Below are positions 3,001 through 39,488 of a stretch of DNA of 64,000 bases, in pieces. Source of the DNA: Strix aluco (taxonomy: Eukaryota > Chordata > Aves > Strigiformes > Strigidae); NCBI RefSeq assembly GCF_031877795.1, contig NC_133931.1, forward strand, positions 74,003,429 to 74,067,428, in the 5' to 3' direction. The notes under the pieces are model-generated. The model did no database searches. It was not told the origin of the DNA and saw only the letters and a list, made by a program, of their open reading frames with translations. How positions within the stretch are numbered: position 1 is the first letter of the stretch; every line of letters begins with the position of its first letter. The translations under genes and the position numbers were made by a program.

Positions 3001-5199
3001 GCCACCCAGCTACAGCTCTATAGCTGTGTTAGTGTAGCACCAAAGCCAAAATAATAACCCTGGGGGTGTAATTAGCTCAATTGCAGTGTGGTAGAGGTAG
3101 AGTTAGAGAGCTGCTGGCTCTGGAGTTATGCGATTTTTCTCTCCCTTTGCTCTGTGTTCACTGCAATCAATAAACTTGCCCCCTTTCTTTTTTTGCTCAA
3201 AGGGAGACTGGTTTGTTGGCCTGTCACGTTTCCCAAGGAGAGCTCTGTATTTGTACCTGTAGGTGGAGCTCCAAACTCATCTTCTAGTATGACAAGAACT
3301 AATGTTAAAGAACAAGCAAACCGAAGAGGAAAACCTTAAAAGAATACTTCTAAATACAATATCCAAATTGTAAAATTTTACAGAAGAAGATGCTTAAAAT
3401 TTTATAACAGAATGCTTTCAGTTTTCGGAATAATGAGAATGGATACCATTTTTATGGTTAAAAAATCATGTTGTTTGTTTCCTTTAGTTGCTCAATCATC
3501 TAGGTGGAAGCAATTTCTTCCTGTTCAGGCACCTTATTTAGCCTTATAAAATTTTAAATCTTACTCAGGAAAAGGTAATAAAAAGAAGATATTTTTCCTT
3601 CTTTTTAATGTCTGCTCTATCTGCTCTATTATGAATGTTTAATGTATTAAACATGAAGCTATGACTCTCTTCCTGATAAAAGGATGTGTCTTGGATCTGC
3701 TTTTGCCTATGAAACTGATCTGATTTTTTTTTTATTATAGATGTAGCAGCCATCAAAGCCTGGATTGGCCCTTGGCATTATAGTCCATCATTCAGCAGGA
3801 AGTAATTTCACAATCACCACTGTCCCGGCAAGCAGTATGAACTATCTTAGGTTTACTGGAGAGATTTGAATTCTGTCATGAGAAGAACTAATACAACCAT
3901 GCTATAGAATGGTTACTGTTAGTTATTCTTATGATTAGCTTAATTATTTCTTTCTGTGGGGACTGGGAGAGTTGCAATGTTGCTATGCTGAGGGAACCGA
4001 ATTTGGGTCATAACATGGGAGTTTTCAGGTGATTCCTCACCTATGTGTGTTGCAGGTGTTCACTGAATGCTTCCATGGCCTTTTTGTTATTGTTTAATCG
4101 AGGAAATAAGAAATCTTTTTTCCTAATGGGTGTTACTGGAAGAACTGTGATTTTTTTGCCCTGCCTGTTTTCCAGTGACATCATTTTTTCCATTCAAATA
4201 TAAAGACACAAATGCTGCAGTTGAAAGAAATCCCCTCTCCATACTGACTTTATCCGTTCTTCTCCAGAAGAGTAATGGTGAAAAGTTGCTGTTAGTGTGC
4301 TTGGAGGAATGGAGGGGAGTAAATCATCACTGGCACTCATGAAGACAGACCAACAGAACACCCCAGTTAAAGATTTGACAGTGTAGATACTGTGCAGAAG
4401 ATATATTATTGGCTCCTTTAATGTACTGTCAGTCCATTTACATGTTATACTATAAAACAATTTCTTTTGGGACAAATGGATTTTTAAGAACAGGCAGAGG
4501 ATGTATTTTTAAGCAATCAGGTTTCATTTTGCAGTGCCTTTTGTTGATATTGTCCATTGACTGAATTACGCTGTCAAAAAAGTGCATTCTTCTCAGGATC
4601 TGTTTTGTTTAATTTCTTACAGGAATGTCCTTGCAGTGTATGGTACTACATTTATCTGGGTTGAAGACTACTTGTGTGTCTGGAATAAAGATTTGTTGGA
4701 AGAAAAGGAAGCTGTCCACTGGGCTTAGCTATGTGGTAAGAAGGGCTAGCTTGAAAATAATAAACTAAAAATAGAAGAAGTATAGTCAAAGTGGTAACAG
4801 AGAGAGATAGGATAAAAGCCAGAATAGCTGCAAATGAAGGGAGAAGAGGAAAAAGACTTAAAGCTCCACGAGTTCTAGGAAGGAAAGTTTGTCTTTTTTT
4901 GCATTGCCTATTTAGATTAGCAAATAAAGTAGATTTTGTTCTGTGATATGTAATTTAGACAATAAACACTAAGAATACTAAGAGAGCCATTAATACTGAT
5001 AATCTTGGTAGATTTTTTTTTTCTGTTTAAAGTGCTAAGCATTTGAATGATAACTGCTAACTGCTGCCTATGAGCCGTTTTTATTTATCAAAACAATAAG
5101 ATTGTTCAATGTTAGTGAAACAGTTTTCATCAGTTAGGAAAGAGTAAAATGGCTGGAATAATTAAAAAAGCTCAACCAACTATTCCTGTTCTGTCACGC
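1..5199. other. Gene-poor unique sequence, left end
   Basis: I recognise no gene or interspersed repeat here. The sequence is AT-rich with many short chance ORFs. Two items are noted but not called as genes. One is an ATG-started 114-codon plus-strand ORF at 2251-2595 with a hydrophobic N-terminus. The other is an acceptor-like site before 4622 (pyrimidine run ending in ACAG), followed by 34 open codons and then a stop. Homopolymer runs are short. Confidence 0.5.
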
Positions 5200-5686
5200 T
5201 GTTACGGGGGCGCTCAAATAAACAACCAACCACCAAAATTTAAAAATTTATTGTCAACACAATTAACTAGCCCTCTGCAAATTACAGGTTCGAATGTCTG
5301 TGAGAGGAGAACAGAACAACTTCCTGGGGTTTAATGACAACCCAAAATGCAGAACAAAGCCCCACTCCCTAGGGTTTAACAACCCAAAACACTCTATCAC
5401 TCACCTGACAAGTGAGGGCTCTCAACCTCGAGGACCTGCTCAGGGCAGCGTCCCGACCCAAGGGGAGAGTCCTCAACCACAGCACACTGCTCCAGGGGAC
5501 AAACTCAAAATGGCTCCCCAGGGGACTCCACTTACATCCAGGCCAAATCTGACCTGTAGGCAACAGCAGCTCCCATTGGCCAAAAGCCCCAACTACCGTG
5601 AAGCCCTGAGAACAAAGGCAATCAGTAACTGCTGCACTTCAGCAGCCAAGAAGCCCTTTTTTCATTGGGAAGGTGCACCTGCCACA
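5200..5686 (-). mobile_element. Solo LTR, family also present at 57586 (inverted copy)
   Basis: Read on the minus strand this begins TGTGGCAGG and ends GTAACA, so it has LTR-type TG...CA ends. It aligns along its whole length with the plus-strand copy at 57586-58163. A polyadenylation signal AATAAA lies at 5252-5247. A strong splice-donor-like CAG|GTGAGT is shared with the other copy. Inside are two units of a roughly 40-48 bp repeat (TTTGGGTTGT...AAACCC), where the other copy has three. No matching target duplication was found: flanks are CACGC and TATGT. No gag, pol or env sequence is adjacent, so it is a solo LTR. Assignment to a named family would need a repeat library. Confidence 0.75.
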
Positions 5687-8044
5687 TATGTCTTGCCTCT
5701 ATATATGAGCTAAAGGTTTAAAGTTTAATCAAAAACCTCTGTGACAGGGTTCAGCCCCTCTCTTGTGGATTAGGGCTTTTTAATAAACTTTCCCAAGTCC
5801 CTGCATCTGTTCTGAAGTCAGGCAAACAGCTTCAGATTGTTTGCAGAAATTGTAGAGTTGCCTGGAGATTGCAGAGATGACTAACAAAATATATGAGGGA
5901 AGGTTAAGAGCTTGAAATATTGAGAGACTGGAAAGATGATTGAGGACATGACTTTTCAAGCAGAGGAAAGGTGGGTAAGATATTGTCAGATGATACAAAA
6001 AAACCCCACTACCCTTGCTAATATTACAGTTTTATTTACAGATGTTCAAAAGAGTGGAACAACCACAATAGAGCCTATAACTCTGCTAGAAACATGACAA
6101 AGAGCTCTTGCTCTTTAAAGTTTTGAAGGGCACTAAGGTTTCCTGAATGTCAATATTACATAAATTGACAGGATAGTGAACAAAACTTAGAATAAAAAAA
6201 AAAAGAGATGCTTATGAAATTAGTGGCTAGCCTGGTTTTGAGAAAAGGAGGGAAAACTTATAGTAAGTGTAGGAGGGAATGACTTTTCCCAACTCACAAG
6301 TGACAGCTTGATCACATAGCTGAAATGCAGTGTGATATTTGTTTTCATGGGTATGCAGACTTGTTACTGACATGATTTTGACATTAAAGAAAAAAAGTGG
6401 CACCCTGGTGCCACTAATGTTTTTGTGGTGTTGTGATTTTTTTGATACTTGATATATATAAAATGCACAGAAATTTGTATTTCATGTTGAATTGACATAG
6501 GCAAAAACTTTCCATGATGTGTGTCTGCCCAAGGCTGTAATTTTAAGGAAGGTTTTGTCCAAAGCAGTTCTGGTACTAGCATGGAGGCTAGGAGTAATGC
6601 TTGCCATCTCAGCTCTGTTTTATTTTCTTTTCCCTTTCTTATCCTGTTTTTGACTTTAAACAGTTCTCTTGTGCCATGCTCCACTTCAGAAGGAAATAAA
6701 AACCAAGGGTCCTTATACTTCTGTGCAGAAGATGCAACAGGGGAAAAAAGGAAGGGAAAAAGGTTAAAAGGGAAGACCCTTTTACCATCTTTGGACCACA
6801 GGTTAGCTGATTCTGTCTTCACTTTCCCCTGGACTAAAGTTCAGGCTACGAAGCATCATGATTGTTGTCAAAAATGCGCTGCCCTCTAGATACAAGATTC
6901 ACCTAGTCTGTCTGCTACATCAAATTCTTAATTTCGGTCTGTATTTTACATTAAAGATATGGATATTAGGGATTTCTGACCTGTGTTAAAATCCTAGAGA
7001 CTGATTAGGCCTGTTCTAATCTCTTCATGTTTATCTGTAGCTTTTCAGGAGGTCTGGAACAGGCAAATAGATCATGCCAGTGTATTTCATGCTGATAATG
7101 CCTGGAAAAAAATGAATGCTCTGGGTGCAAAGCCATGTCAAATCTGTCTTATGGGACTGATGCTAGACTGTTAAAATGCCAATTTTACTCTTCCCCTGCA
7201 GAATGGATGTTTCTGAGGCACTCTGGGGAATGGGTGTATTAATGTATGGATAACTTGTGGGAAAAGAACAGGAGCTTCAGAACTGCCATAAAATCAAAAA
7301 GGGGAAAAAGAAGAAGAAAAAAAAAAAAAGTGGGGAGATCCTTGAAACTAAACATACAAATCAGATGGGGGAAAAAAAAAAGAGATTTATTAAAAACATA
7401 TCAGAGATTTTCCTGCTCTCAAATAAATGTTCCCTTAGTTTCAGAGTATGTAATAGAGTGGTTATAGGAATCTTCATTCTGAATGTATTTGCCCAAAAGA
7501 AGTTATAAATCCCAAGTTTACACAGTATAGCCAGGTTGTCTTTTTCAATTACTTTTTTTGACCAAATTCAACTAAGTGACATGCTGGTTATATTCCTCAG
7601 ACTTACTGTAAGAGTAAGCTTAAAGTGTGTGATTTTGACTGTATAGTATTGATCATGTTGTAGAAACAGAAACTGAAGGGTTTTTTTCCCCTCTCAGTCT
7701 CTAATTATCGAGTATTATAGTTTGTCAGTACTGCCTCTTGAGAAGGTGAGATTCTGTTATTGGCTTGACATGTTTTGAACTGAACACATAACTGTGGTTA
7801 TTGTTTATGTCCATTTGTGTTGTGGTATAGTTCCATGTATACATTCTTAATGTGCTTGGCCTGTAGTAATGCCATGTTGAATAAAAGTCACAATGGTAAC
7901 AGTAAAACAATCAAGGATCTATTTCAAAGTCCATAGAAGTCACCCAAAAGATTCCCATTCAGCACAGCTGTCACTGCATTATGCAACCACAAAATAAATA
8001 CTTGTTAAAATAATTTCCCTTTAGAAGTCCTTATGCTATGATAT
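5687..8044. other. No recognisable gene
   Basis: This is AT-rich sequence without a recognised repeat or gene. Overlapping ORFs on both strands at 6364-6889 (minus 152 codons, plus 122 codons) shadow each other and have no clear splice sites. An A/G-rich stretch at 7295-7385 produces lysine-rich chance ORFs. Confidence 0.45.
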
Positions 8045-8406
8045 TGTGGTGGTTTAGGCCCCGCTGGGACTCGAGACCATGCTGCTGCTCCGCTCCCCCA
8101 CCCTCCGACCGGACAGGGCAGGGAGCAAAATACAAACCCCGGGGTTGAGATAAGGAAAAATTTAATACAACAGTGTAACAACAACAAACTGAACAACAAC
8201 AATAACAATAACAGTAATAACAATGAACAGAACAAGAGATATACCGTATGGATACAGCAGTGAGGGGATTGACCGAACAAAGGCAGTCCCTGCTCTTTCC
8301 CGCGCTTGGGCGCTGGGACCTGACGTCAGCATGGTATTGAATAACCCGGCTAGAGCTTCCCCCCACTGCTGGGGAAACTTAACCCTATCCTAGCTGAACC
8401 AGGACA
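8045..8406 (-). mobile_element. Solo ERV LTR with 5-bp target duplication GATAT
   Basis: This is a 362-bp LTR on the minus strand. Read 5' to 3' it starts TGTCCTGGTT and ends CCACCACA. The host sequence GATAT is repeated exactly at 8040-8044 and 8407-8411, which marks a retroviral-type integration. It belongs to the same family as the two LTRs at 8474-9274 but is clearly diverged from them: the first 60 bases, the ATTAAA polyadenylation region and the last 20 bases align well, while the middle differs. Several overlapping ORFs of about 90-110 codons here are shadows of the LTR's GTT/ATT-rich core and are not genes. Confidence 0.9.
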
Positions 8407-8468: not shown

Positions 8469-8473
8469 GTAAG
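8469..8473 (+). repeat. Target-site duplication GTAAG (left)
   Basis: GTAAG lies immediately before the outer TG of the left LTR and is repeated exactly at 9275-9279 after the outer CA of the right LTR. The 5-bp length matches the duplication around the neighbouring solo LTR. Confidence 0.85.
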
Positions 8474-8836
8474 TGTCCTGGTTTAACCAGGATAGGGTTA
8501 AGTTTCCCCAGCAGTGGGGGGGAGCTCTAGCCGGGTTATTCAGATACCATGCCGACGTCACATCCTGGCAGGTCACATTTTTTCCTGGCGCGGAGCGCGG
8601 TGCACTCGTGGTTTTGTACATCGTGCTTCAAACTGCTGTATTTGGTAGCTATTTTGCTCTGTTCATTGCTATCACTATTACTGTTATTGTTATTGCTGTT
8701 GTTTGTTGTGTTGCTATTACATTGTTGTATTAAACCTTTCCTTATTTCAGTCTTGGGGCTTTGTATTTCACTCCCTTTGTGGGGGAGGGGCAGCGGCCGC
8801 GTGGTCTCAGACCCCGGCAGGGGCTAAACCACCACA
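8474..8836 (+). repeat. Left LTR arm of the palindrome
   Basis: This is a complete LTR from TGTCCTGG to CCACCACA. It has an ATTAAA polyadenylation signal at 8729-8734 and a GTTATT-rich core upstream of it. There is no convincing TATA box. ORFs of 73-92 codons across it are mirrored on the opposite strand in the right arm and are not genes. The arm joins the tRNA segment through a short overlap (ACT) at 8837-8839. Confidence 0.92.
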
Positions 8837-8837
8837 A

Positions 8838-8907
8838 CTAGCTCAGTCGGTAGAGCATGAGACTCTTAATCCCAGGGTCGTGGGTTCGAGCCCCACGTTG
8901 GGCGCCA
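8838..8907 (+). tRNA. tRNA-Lys(CTT) copy, positions 7-76, 5' acceptor strand missing
   Basis: These 70 bases match the body of vertebrate tRNA-Lys(CTT) from position 7 to the 3' end. The D arm, anticodon loop with CTT at 8865-8867, variable loop and T arm (GGTTCGAGCCC) are intact. The 3' acceptor strand GTTGGGC, discriminator G and terminal CCA (8905-8907) follow. CCA is not genome-encoded in vertebrates, so this is a copy of a mature tRNA, i.e. a retroviral primer, not a duplicated gene. The first six bases of the acceptor stem are replaced by LTR sequence, so a normal acceptor stem cannot form. One anticodon-stem pair is A-C (8860/8872). A-box and B-box promoter motifs remain, so RNA polymerase III transcription is conceivable. 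It is probably not a working tRNA gene. Confidence 0.92.
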
Positions 8908-8911
8908 AAGT
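8890..8911 (-). promoter_or_regulatory. Primer-binding site (tRNA-Lys1,2 type) of the right LTR
   Basis: Read on the minus strand, the right LTR ends in CA, is followed by the 4-base spacer ACTT, and then by TGGCGCCCAACGTGGGGC. This 18-base sequence is the standard primer-binding site for tRNA-Lys(CTT). In a normal provirus the complementarity stops after about 18 bases; here it continues through the rest of the tRNA. Confidence 0.88.
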
Positions 8912-9274
8912 TGTGGTGGTTTAGCCCCTGCCGGGGTCTGAGACCACGCGGCCGCTGCCCCTCCCCCACAAAGGGAGTGAAATACAAAGCCCCAAGACTG
9001 AAATAAGGAAAGGTTTAATACAACAATGTAATAGCAACACAACAAACAACAGCAATAACAATAACAGTAATAGTGATAGCAATGAACAGAGCAAAATAGC
9101 TACCAAATACAGCAGTGAGAAGCACGATGTACAAAACCACGAGTGCACCGCGCTCCGCGCCAGGAAAAAATGTGACCTGCCAGGATGTGACGTCCACATG
9201 GTATCTGAATAACCCGGCTAGAGCTCCCCCCCACTGCTGGGGAAACTTAACCCTATCCTGGTTAAACCAGGACA
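8912..9274 (-). repeat. Right LTR arm of the palindrome (inverted)
   Basis: This is the reverse complement of 8474-8836 with 359 of 363 positions identical by my alignment. It ends CCAGGACA at 9274, directly followed by the duplication GTAAG. At the second variable pair its bases (CTCACTGCTG) agree with the older solo LTR at 8045-8406, suggesting that the left arm carries the change there. Confidence 0.92.
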
Positions 9275-9279
9275 GTAAG
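9275..9279 (+). repeat. Target-site duplication GTAAG (right)
   Basis: This is an exact copy of 8469-8473 and marks the outer edge of the palindromic element. Confidence 0.85.
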
Positions 9280-37962: not shown

Positions 37963-39488
37963 TTGGGACCAGACGAGATACACCCGAGGGTGCTGAAGGA
38001 GCTGGCTGGGGTGCTTGCCAAGCCACTTTCCATCATTTACCAACAGTCCTGGCTGACCGGGGGAGGTCCTGACAGATTGGAAACTGTCCAATGTGATGCA
38101 TATATATAAGAAGGGTCGGAAGGATGATCCGGGAAATTACAGGATTGTCACCTTGACGTCAGTGCCCGGGAAGCTGATGGAGCAGCTCATCCTGAGTACC
38201 ATCACACAACACGTGCGGGACAAACAGATGATCAGGCCCAGTCAGCATGGGTTTATGAAAGGCAGGTCCTGCTTGACAAACCTGATCTCCTTCTACGACA
38301 GAGTGACCTGCTTATTGGATGAGGGAAAGGTTGTGGATGTTGTCTACCTTGACTTCAGTAAGGCCTTTGACACTGTTTCCCACAGCATTCTCCTGGCGAA
38401 ACTGGCTGCTCACAGCTTGGATGGGCACATGCTTCGTGGGGTAAAAAACTGGCTGGATGGCCGGGCCCAAAGAGTTGTGGTGAACAGAGTTAAATCCAGT
38501 TGGTGGCTGGTCACGAGTGGTGTCCCCCAGGGCTCAGTTTTGGGGCCACTCGTCTTTAACATCTTTATTGATGATCTAGACGAGGGGATCGAGTGCACCC
38601 TCAGTAAGTTTGCAGACAACACCAAGCTGGGTGGGAGTGTTGATCTGCTCGAGGGTAGGGAGGCTCTGCAGAGAGATCTGGACAGGCTGGAGCGATGGGC
38701 TAAGGCCAACTGTAGGAGTTTCAATAAGGTCAAATGCTGGGTTCTGCACTTGGGCCACAACAACCCCCAGCAGCGCTACAGGCCTGGGGAGGAGTGGCTG
38801 GAGAGCTGCCAGTCAGAGAGGGACCTGGGGGTGTTGATTGACAGCCGGCTGAACAGGAGCCAGCAGTGTACCCAGGTGGCCAAGAAGGCCAATGGCATCC
38901 TGGCTTGTATCAGAAATAGCGTCGCCAGCAGGGACAGGGAAGTGATCTTATCCCTGTACTCGGCACTGGTGAGGCCGCACCTTGATTACTGTGTTCAGTT
39001 TTGGGCCCCTCACTCCAAAAAAGACATTGAATTACTCGAGCGTGTCCAGAGAAGGGCAACGAAGCTGGTGAAGGGTCTGGAGCACATGTCGTACGAGGAG
39101 CGGCTGAGGGAACTGGGGGTGTTTAGTCTGGAGAAGAGGAGGCTGAGGGGAGACCTCATCGCCCTCTACAACTACCTGAAAGGAGGTTCCAGAGAGCTGG
39201 GGATGAGTCTCTCTAACGAAGTAATAAGCTATAGGACAAGAGGTAATGGCCTCAAGTTGTGCCAGGGAGGTTTAGACTGGATATTAGGAAGTATTTCTTT
39301 ACAGAATGGGTTGTTAGGCATTGGAATGGGCTGCCCAGGGAGGTGGTGGAGTCCCCATCCCTGGAGGTGTTTAAGAGTAGGGTTGACATAGCGCTTAGGG
39401 ATATGGTGTAGTTGGGAACTGTCAATGTTAGGTTAATGGTTGGACTGGATGATCTTCAAGGTCTTTTCTAACCTAGGTGATTCTGTGA
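37963..39488 (+). mobile_element. CR1 LINE, 5'-truncated, with long ORF2 remnant
   Basis: This is about 1.5 kb of CR1, from the reverse-transcriptase fingers (GATACACCCGAGGGTGCTGA) to the 3' tail (TTCTAACCTAGGTGATTCTG). The endonuclease and ORF1 are missing. Relative to typical CR1 the upstream part is out of frame with the long ORF because of an extra base in the G-run near 38058-38063. A 432-codon ORF remains open after that. It is the youngest-looking CR1 in the window, and its tail closely resembles the fragment at 40764-40900. Confidence 0.96.
38093..39391 (+). pseudogene. CR1 ORF2 reverse-transcriptase fragment, catalytic motif mutated
   Basis: The 432-codon ORF carries the CR1 reverse transcriptase from the finger/palm to near the C-terminus. 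Motifs in order are [12 protein letters not shown] (about residues 6-17), [10 protein letters not shown] (about 49-58), [11 protein letters not shown] (about 85-95), [20 protein letters not shown] (about 143-162), FADNTKLGG (about 173-181), [12 protein letters not shown] (about 288-299), [11 protein letters not shown] (about 313-323) and EKRRLRGDL (about 344-352). The catalytic pair, normally FADD, reads FADN: Asn at about residue 176 (codon AAC at 38618-38620), one G-to-A step from Asp. The last 30 or so residues leave the family frame. N-terminal endonuclease is absent. The product would be inactive. Confidence 0.93.

Follow-up and report, generated by a model that had tools for sequence, protein, structure and literature searches.

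A palindrome of two LTRs around a primer-tRNA copy in the genome of Strix aluco, and its probable origin in tRNA read-through

Solo LTRs arise via recombination of a provirus, and 2-LTR circles, which are unintegrated, join U5 to U3. The second strand transfer of reverse transcription, and the role of m1A58 of the primer tRNA in stopping the plus strand, are known mainly from work in vitro or in tissue culture with few viruses. Pulsinelli and Temin reportedly found, with spleen necrosis virus vectors, deletion proviruses that came from errors of strand transfer and had tRNA sequence at the junction. HIV-1 2-LTR circle junctions with inserted sequence of the tRNA primer are reported (PMC5618025), as are hybrids of HIV cDNA and tRNA(Lys3) copied in vitro (PMC10986323). 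Here I describe a locus in which two LTRs and a primer tRNA are joined in another manner and lie integrated in a bird genome.

The window (the whole stretch of DNA that was analysed, 64,000 nucleotides, at C1:74003429-74067428) belongs to an assembly of 1,414,655,264 bases in 202 contigs. A palindrome occupies positions 8469-9279. It opens with the left copy of a 5-bp target-site duplication (TSD), GTAAG (8469..8473), next to which lies a left LTR arm of 363 bp on the plus strand (8474..8836), reading TGTCC...CACA with its U3 end outermost. The left junction, ACT (8837..8839, plus strand), contains a microhomology of two bases, since CT is common to the spacer ACTT that separates LTR from primer-binding site (PBS) and to nt 7-8 of the tRNA. 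The tRNA itself, a copy of mature tRNA-Lys(CTT), takes up 8838..8907 of the plus strand and comprises nt 7-76, including the post-transcriptional CCA. Comparison with other copies shows that 18 nt of it, read on the minus strand (8890..8907), match the PBS of the family's ordinary proviruses. Then come, both on the minus strand, the U5-PBS spacer ACTT (8908..8911; AAGT on the plus strand) and the right LTR arm, inverted, again 363 bp with U3 outermost (8912..9274), and last the right copy of GTAAG (9275..9279). The core between the arms (8837-8911) is 75 bp of tRNA copy and 4-nt spacer. Read on the minus strand, the right arm runs LTR...CACA-ACTT-TGGCGCCCAACGTGGGGC, then through the complement of tRNA-Lys to nt 7, then into the other LTR.

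A sequence-only reading had already placed two 363-bp LTRs, identical at 359 positions, U5-to-U5 around a nearly complete mature tRNA-Lys(CTT), with a single 5-bp GTAAG duplication enclosing the whole, and exact coordinates bear it out on each count. The tRNA was called both by ARAGORN (anticodon CTT) and by Rfam RF00005 (53.2 bits), and "nearly complete" is the right description because the 5' strand of the acceptor, nt 1-6, is missing. Both outer ends are precise U3 (TG) ends, and they lie, as an insertion by integrase would leave them, inside one TSD of the fixed length typical of the family; five bases would match by chance with p of about 0.0013, judging from base composition. That reading had also held that the element is neither a provirus, a solo LTR nor two independent insertions, and with inverted arms, U3 at the outer ends and one TSD I come to the same view. 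A provirus is rejected, as the arms are inverted rather than direct and the 75-bp core consists of tRNA and spacer instead of coding sequence; a solo LTR, as U3 stands at both outer ends; and two separate insertions, as both U3 ends are inside one TSD. A tRNA gene or tRNA-derived SINE is rejected as well, with CCA encoded, nt 1-6 absent and LTRs on both sides.

What is the core? It continues as tRNA beyond the 18-nt PBS, colinear with U5, spacer and PBS, and CCA is present. In the family's proviral copies the likeness to the tRNA stops with the PBS; the core of the window keeps it for about 50 nt longer, which points to the primer, tRNA-Lys(CTT), as the template of this DNA, CCA included. The first two bases of the copy at 8838..8907 are ambiguous and could be spacer, so that the tRNA ends at nt 7 or 9. 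Folding of the core as RNA gave no signal (z -0.03); the acceptor strand is absent from it. The window's copy (8838-8907) has a mismatch of A29 with C41, and other copies have A29-T41 or G29-C41, so there may be two isodecoders that serve as primer. No near-identical tRNA-Lys gene was among the 20 candidates of the genome search with the tRNA core, an absence that is no proof of rarity, and the sole gene-like tRNA-Lys among the places read from that search was L051, at 90%.

The LTRs themselves belong to a family with ordinary proviruses. A search of the genome with the LTR, in which the best 40 of 2368 candidates were scored, listed 42 matches: the two arms, a neighbouring LTR and 39 other copies, these last at 97.5-99.2% identity. 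An exact test gave perfect 5-bp TSDs for 17 of the 39. In 12 the LTR is succeeded by ACTT and a PBS of the Lys type, with the same 18 nt as in the window in 4 of the 12 and small changes in 8, and aggggtggatta, which I read as the PPT side of 3' LTRs, precedes 7 of the 39. Three of the 39 have neither an exact TSD nor the ACTT-PBS nor aggggtggatta. A second genome search, with the junction as query and the best 40 of 503 candidates scored, listed 41 matches, of which 24 lie on contig C40 (49 Mb). The proviruses of this family may therefore be concentrated there; at a guess, C40 could be a sex chromosome.

The neighbouring LTR (8045..8406, minus strand) is more diverged, belongs to a related family and has a 5-bp TSD of its own, GATAT on the plus strand. 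It is a separate insertion, 67 bp from the palindrome and opposite in sense to the left arm. With an LTR so close by, the spot has been hit twice, and one might ask whether the palindrome is itself the outcome of two separate insertions or of an ordinary provirus later rearranged by inversion and deletion. Such a history is extremely improbable: ordinary proviruses match the tRNA over the PBS only, and here the match is 70 nt long with CCA, while a single TSD surrounds both U3 ends. Elsewhere in the window, Pfam found one match in eight open frames, a LINE-type (non-LTR) reverse transcriptase, RVT_1, at 38057-39388 (444 aa, E 1.9e-29). An exact inverted repeat with copies about 53 kb apart lies near 5227 and 58119; outside the palindrome there are 86 pairs of inverted 18-mers, and the first 20 listed lie in these two places.

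I propose that the palindrome descends from an endogenous retrovirus (ERV) primed by tRNA-Lys(CTT), through read-through into the tRNA, joining to a second LTR and insertion by integrase. This is probable as a joint claim, that is, for read-through, joining and insertion taken together; the route of joining is divided between it and two rivals considered below, end joining and snapback, so the probabilities overlap. Much of it can be read directly at the locus. One strand covers U3-R-U5-spacer-PBS and runs on into the primer tRNA, past nt 58, and this tRNA-extended strand is continuous, at the CT/AG microhomology, with another LTR from this family, set in the opposite sense. The event would be a failed second strand transfer, fossilised by integration. 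If so, the two arms would represent two plus-strand strong-stop DNAs, perhaps from two co-packaged genomes. The 3' end of one, extended into the tRNA and unusable in the normal way, would switch to the other strong-stop DNA at its 3' end, a joining step that I infer, and copying to the 5' end defined by the PPT would then give a duplex ending in U3 on both sides, for integrase to insert. The sequence-only reading had likewise seen an aberrant product of reverse transcription that kept its primer and was inserted as one unit. The U3/U3 ends within one TSD, the tRNA that passes the PBS with CCA, and a second palindrome described below all speak for that account.

An alternative view is that only one strand was involved: the tRNA-extended plus strand folds back on its own U5 and copies itself to a hairpin, which is opened or replicated before integration. 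The palindromic form and the closeness of the arms would follow. Both arms carry a rare A at LTR position 246 (found in 1 of the 39 other listed copies), and both have a longer T run (6 of the 39), so the arms are clearly close relatives, a kinship that counts for the proposed origin as well. A hairpin, however, provides one U3 end, and here two U3 ends are integrated within one TSD. The four differences between the arms come as neighbouring pairs, at 8552-8553 and 8630-8631 of the window. In the first pair, LTR position 79 has in the right arm a T that occurs in none of the 39, and at position 80, which also counts against snapback because it is variable among the other listed copies too, the C of the left arm is found in 6 and the G of the right arm in 24. 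At positions 157-158, the TC of the right arm is found in none of the 39 and CC in 2. The pattern thinly suggests that the arms derive from two genomes; all four differences could instead be later mutations. They are too few to date the insertion well, falling as they do in adjacent pairs and being partly common to other copies. I consider snapback decidedly unlikely.

Other loci in the genome also keep copies of the primer tRNA. The search with the tRNA core gave 20 candidates, all scored, at 20 places, of which 17 were read. Fifteen show the 3' end of the tRNA, its CCA intact or decayed, then a short spacer and a U5 or U5-like sequence: the window, L043, L044, L045, L046, L047 (a near-duplicate of L046), L048, L049, L050, L052, L083, L084, L086, L087 and L088. 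The other two have no CCA; L051 is gene-like, and at L085 no LTR was seen. With L053, found by the junction query only, there are at least 16 loci bearing tRNA-Lys, from several ERV groups. The LTR was verified by homology or by an LTR pair at the window, L043, L044, L045, L048, L049, L050 and L053, and the U5 was judged by eye at the remaining 8 of the 16. The U5-like sequence is that of other LTR families at L045, L046, L048, L049, L052, L083, L084, L086, L087 and L088. Judged by eye, the tRNA extends to nt 1 in 10 of the 16 (L048, with its first bases decayed, is the least sure) and ends at nt 7 in the window, at about nt 18 in L053, at nt 22 in L083 and L087, at about nt 41 in L088 and at about nt 45 in L050.

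What comes after the tRNA varies. L078 (4442-7221 in the region of C40:21840325) has two LTRs of 94% identity (4442-4824 and 6853-7221) and the TSD TTACCT; after the 5' LTR come a short spacer, the full complement of tRNA-Lys and then RNase H and integrase domains. By these features L078 is classed as a deletion provirus, of an ERV group other than the window's, its TSD being 6 bp. Its continuation in plus-sense pol is as if taken from minus-strand DNA. At L080 (the L043 locus; 4570-8090), an LTR and the full tRNA-Lys complement run into about 420 bp of inverted leader, a 91% match to ordinary proviral loci such as L071, which ends about 16 nt before the position of the PBS; the 3' LTR is at 7759-8090, and the TSD agrees, by eye, at best in 4 of 5 bases. 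L076, at the L045 locus, combines a full tRNA with a pair of older LTRs (70%). The window and L050 continue into an inverted LTR. If L078 and L080 are counted as further outcomes of the same read-through, they support that explanation of the palindrome. Read in this way, it is the retained primer tRNA that keeps returning, with partners that vary (a deletion provirus, an inverted leader, a palindrome), and not a single replicating structure.

Copying of a tRNA beyond the PBS may also leave its mark on the copy. I take nt 58 of the primer tRNA to be the m1A at which the plus strand normally stops. Substitutions were counted in 15 tRNA copies, leaving out L053 (rearranged) and L047 (a duplicate), against the commonest letter among the copies, which served as baseline because no near-identical tRNA-Lys gene was among the 20 candidates. 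The count gives 17 transversions against 70 transitions. At nt 58 a transversion is present in four of the 15 copies, every one A-to-T (L044, L048, L085 and L087); the next position has 2. Random placement reached four at nt 58 in 1 of 20,000 draws and, on repetition, in 2 of 50,000, the test treating as independent copies that, coming from related ERVs, are not fully so. Without L085, which has no LTR and no CCA, the count is 3 of 14, equalled in 58 of 50,000 draws. It counts against such a mark that the copies in the window and L050 have an unmutated A at nt 58; L078 has AT, not GA, at nt 57-58. m1A is reported to cause both arrest and misincorporation (PMC4787781), and the A-to-T change may well be the mark to be expected from copying m1A58.

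The second palindrome, L050 (C41:72598084), has LTR arms at 1171-1524 and 1953-1603, and its flanks read CTCCA|TGTCC and GGACA|CTCCA, giving the TSD CTCCA. Its core of 78 bp comprises ACTT, the complement of the tRNA as far as about nt 45 and a 42-bp filler of other sequence, followed by the second U5. The filler, on the other strand, contains ATGGGAAGTAAAAATG and could, judged by eye, be the start of gag; compared with the other loci read, it gave short, chance-like matches only. Between the arms, 10 of 351 aligned positions disagree, with 3 gap columns besides, a divergence that makes L050 probably older than the palindrome in the window.

Is there, then, a family of such elements? The sequence-only reading had thought that further copies, if found, would define a class of non-autonomous element, and the genome searches did turn up L050, though, among the places read, no second copy of the window's left junction. 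The pattern AAACCAYCACAN{62,92}TGTGRTGGTTT matches at two loci in the 1.41-Gb genome, the window and L050, and a reversed control pattern at none; a stricter pattern of 60-90 matches the window alone. An exact-end pattern for palindromes with cores of 0-30 bp finds none in the genome (control, none). The count thus covers core lengths of 0-30 and 60-92 bp, and because the patterns demand exact U5 ends of this family, it misses decayed copies and other families. Two palindromes and at least 16 tRNA-bearing loci in one genome would suit a non-autonomous LTR-tRNA-LTR family that propagates itself, and L048 and L049 have about 220 bp in common past the 5' end of the tRNA, so that some tRNA-bearing arrangement may have been copied. 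Yet the palindromes in the window and at L050 have different cores, tRNA end points, LTR subfamilies and TSDs. The left junction of the window recurs at none of the other places read, nor is it spanned by any other of the 41 listed junction matches, and a second LTR match lies in the flank (0.5 or 1.5 kb examined) of none of the 39 close LTR copies listed. A self-propagating family is very improbable, and a class in that sense is not supported. On this evidence, LTR-tRNA-LTR palindromes look like a recurrent accident.

L050 bears on two further explanations. Inverted repeats are a known form of assembly artefact, and a foldback chimaera might be suspected. It is scarcely credible here: a foldback makes neither a TSD nor a tRNA core that is colinear with a PBS at just one of its sides, there are 4 differences between the arms, L050 follows the same logic with a different core, and 1.41 Gb were assembled in 202 contigs. 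The other explanation is that the host joined two LTR-length double-stranded products of reverse transcription before integration, one of them with a tRNA-extended U5, by alternative end joining at the CT microhomology. Duplexes that consist of an LTR alone and have a finished U3 end are not known as ordinary intermediates, and jumps after the tRNA into viral sequence of either sense, as at L080 and L078, suit template switching better. The two-base microhomology at the left junction nevertheless fits end joining, the filler between the arms of L050 is a possible outcome of it, and the tRNA-primer inserts reported at HIV 2-LTR circle junctions (PMC5618025) count in its favour. I consider joining by the host unlikely.

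Returning to read-through followed by strand switching, the two U3/U3 palindromes, each within one TSD, point to natural cases in which integrase inserted DNA that had U3 at both ends. These loci would be natural genomic records of failed second strand transfer, in which the sequence of the primer, the tRNA end point and a likely mark of misincorporation can be read. A broader idea can be advanced tentatively, as more doubtful than the origin proposed for the palindrome: that the m1A58 stop is leaky in this lineage, that several ERV groups often copy the whole primer, that template switching rescues the product and that integrase takes two-U3 substrates in vivo. If that is true, the genome holds a record of repeated failures of the second strand transfer, in the shape of palindromes, deletion proviruses and proviruses with inverted leaders.

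How new is such a structure? Patterns for the LTR, the junction and the tRNA had no matches in collections of viral contigs and genome contigs, which are uninformative for an animal ERV. A literature survey that covered titles, the starts of abstracts and few subscription papers brought up no integrated palindrome of this U5-U5 form around a near-complete tRNA, a weak absence, and the term LTR-tRNA-LTR does not occur in the portions of the literature surveyed. Primer-tRNA sequence at circle junctions is already reported (PMC5618025).

Like a solo LTR, the palindrome offers LTR sequence and a 5-bp TSD but nothing that codes; they differ in that a solo LTR has one U3 and one U5 outer end and the palindrome has U3 at both. 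The HIV cDNA-tRNA(Lys3) hybrids show an enzyme copying DNA and attached tRNA as one strand, but they are products of an assay in vitro, unintegrated and not palindromic. The deletion proviruses reported for spleen necrosis virus vectors combine read-through of the primer by the plus strand with a wrong landing; L078 looks like them, whereas the palindrome in the window has an inverted second LTR that they lack. With the HIV-1 2-LTR circle junctions the palindrome shares a primer tRNA kept beside U5 and joined to another LTR end. The circles, however, join U5 to U3 and are unintegrated; the palindrome joins U5 to U5 around a nearly whole tRNA and lies integrated within a TSD.
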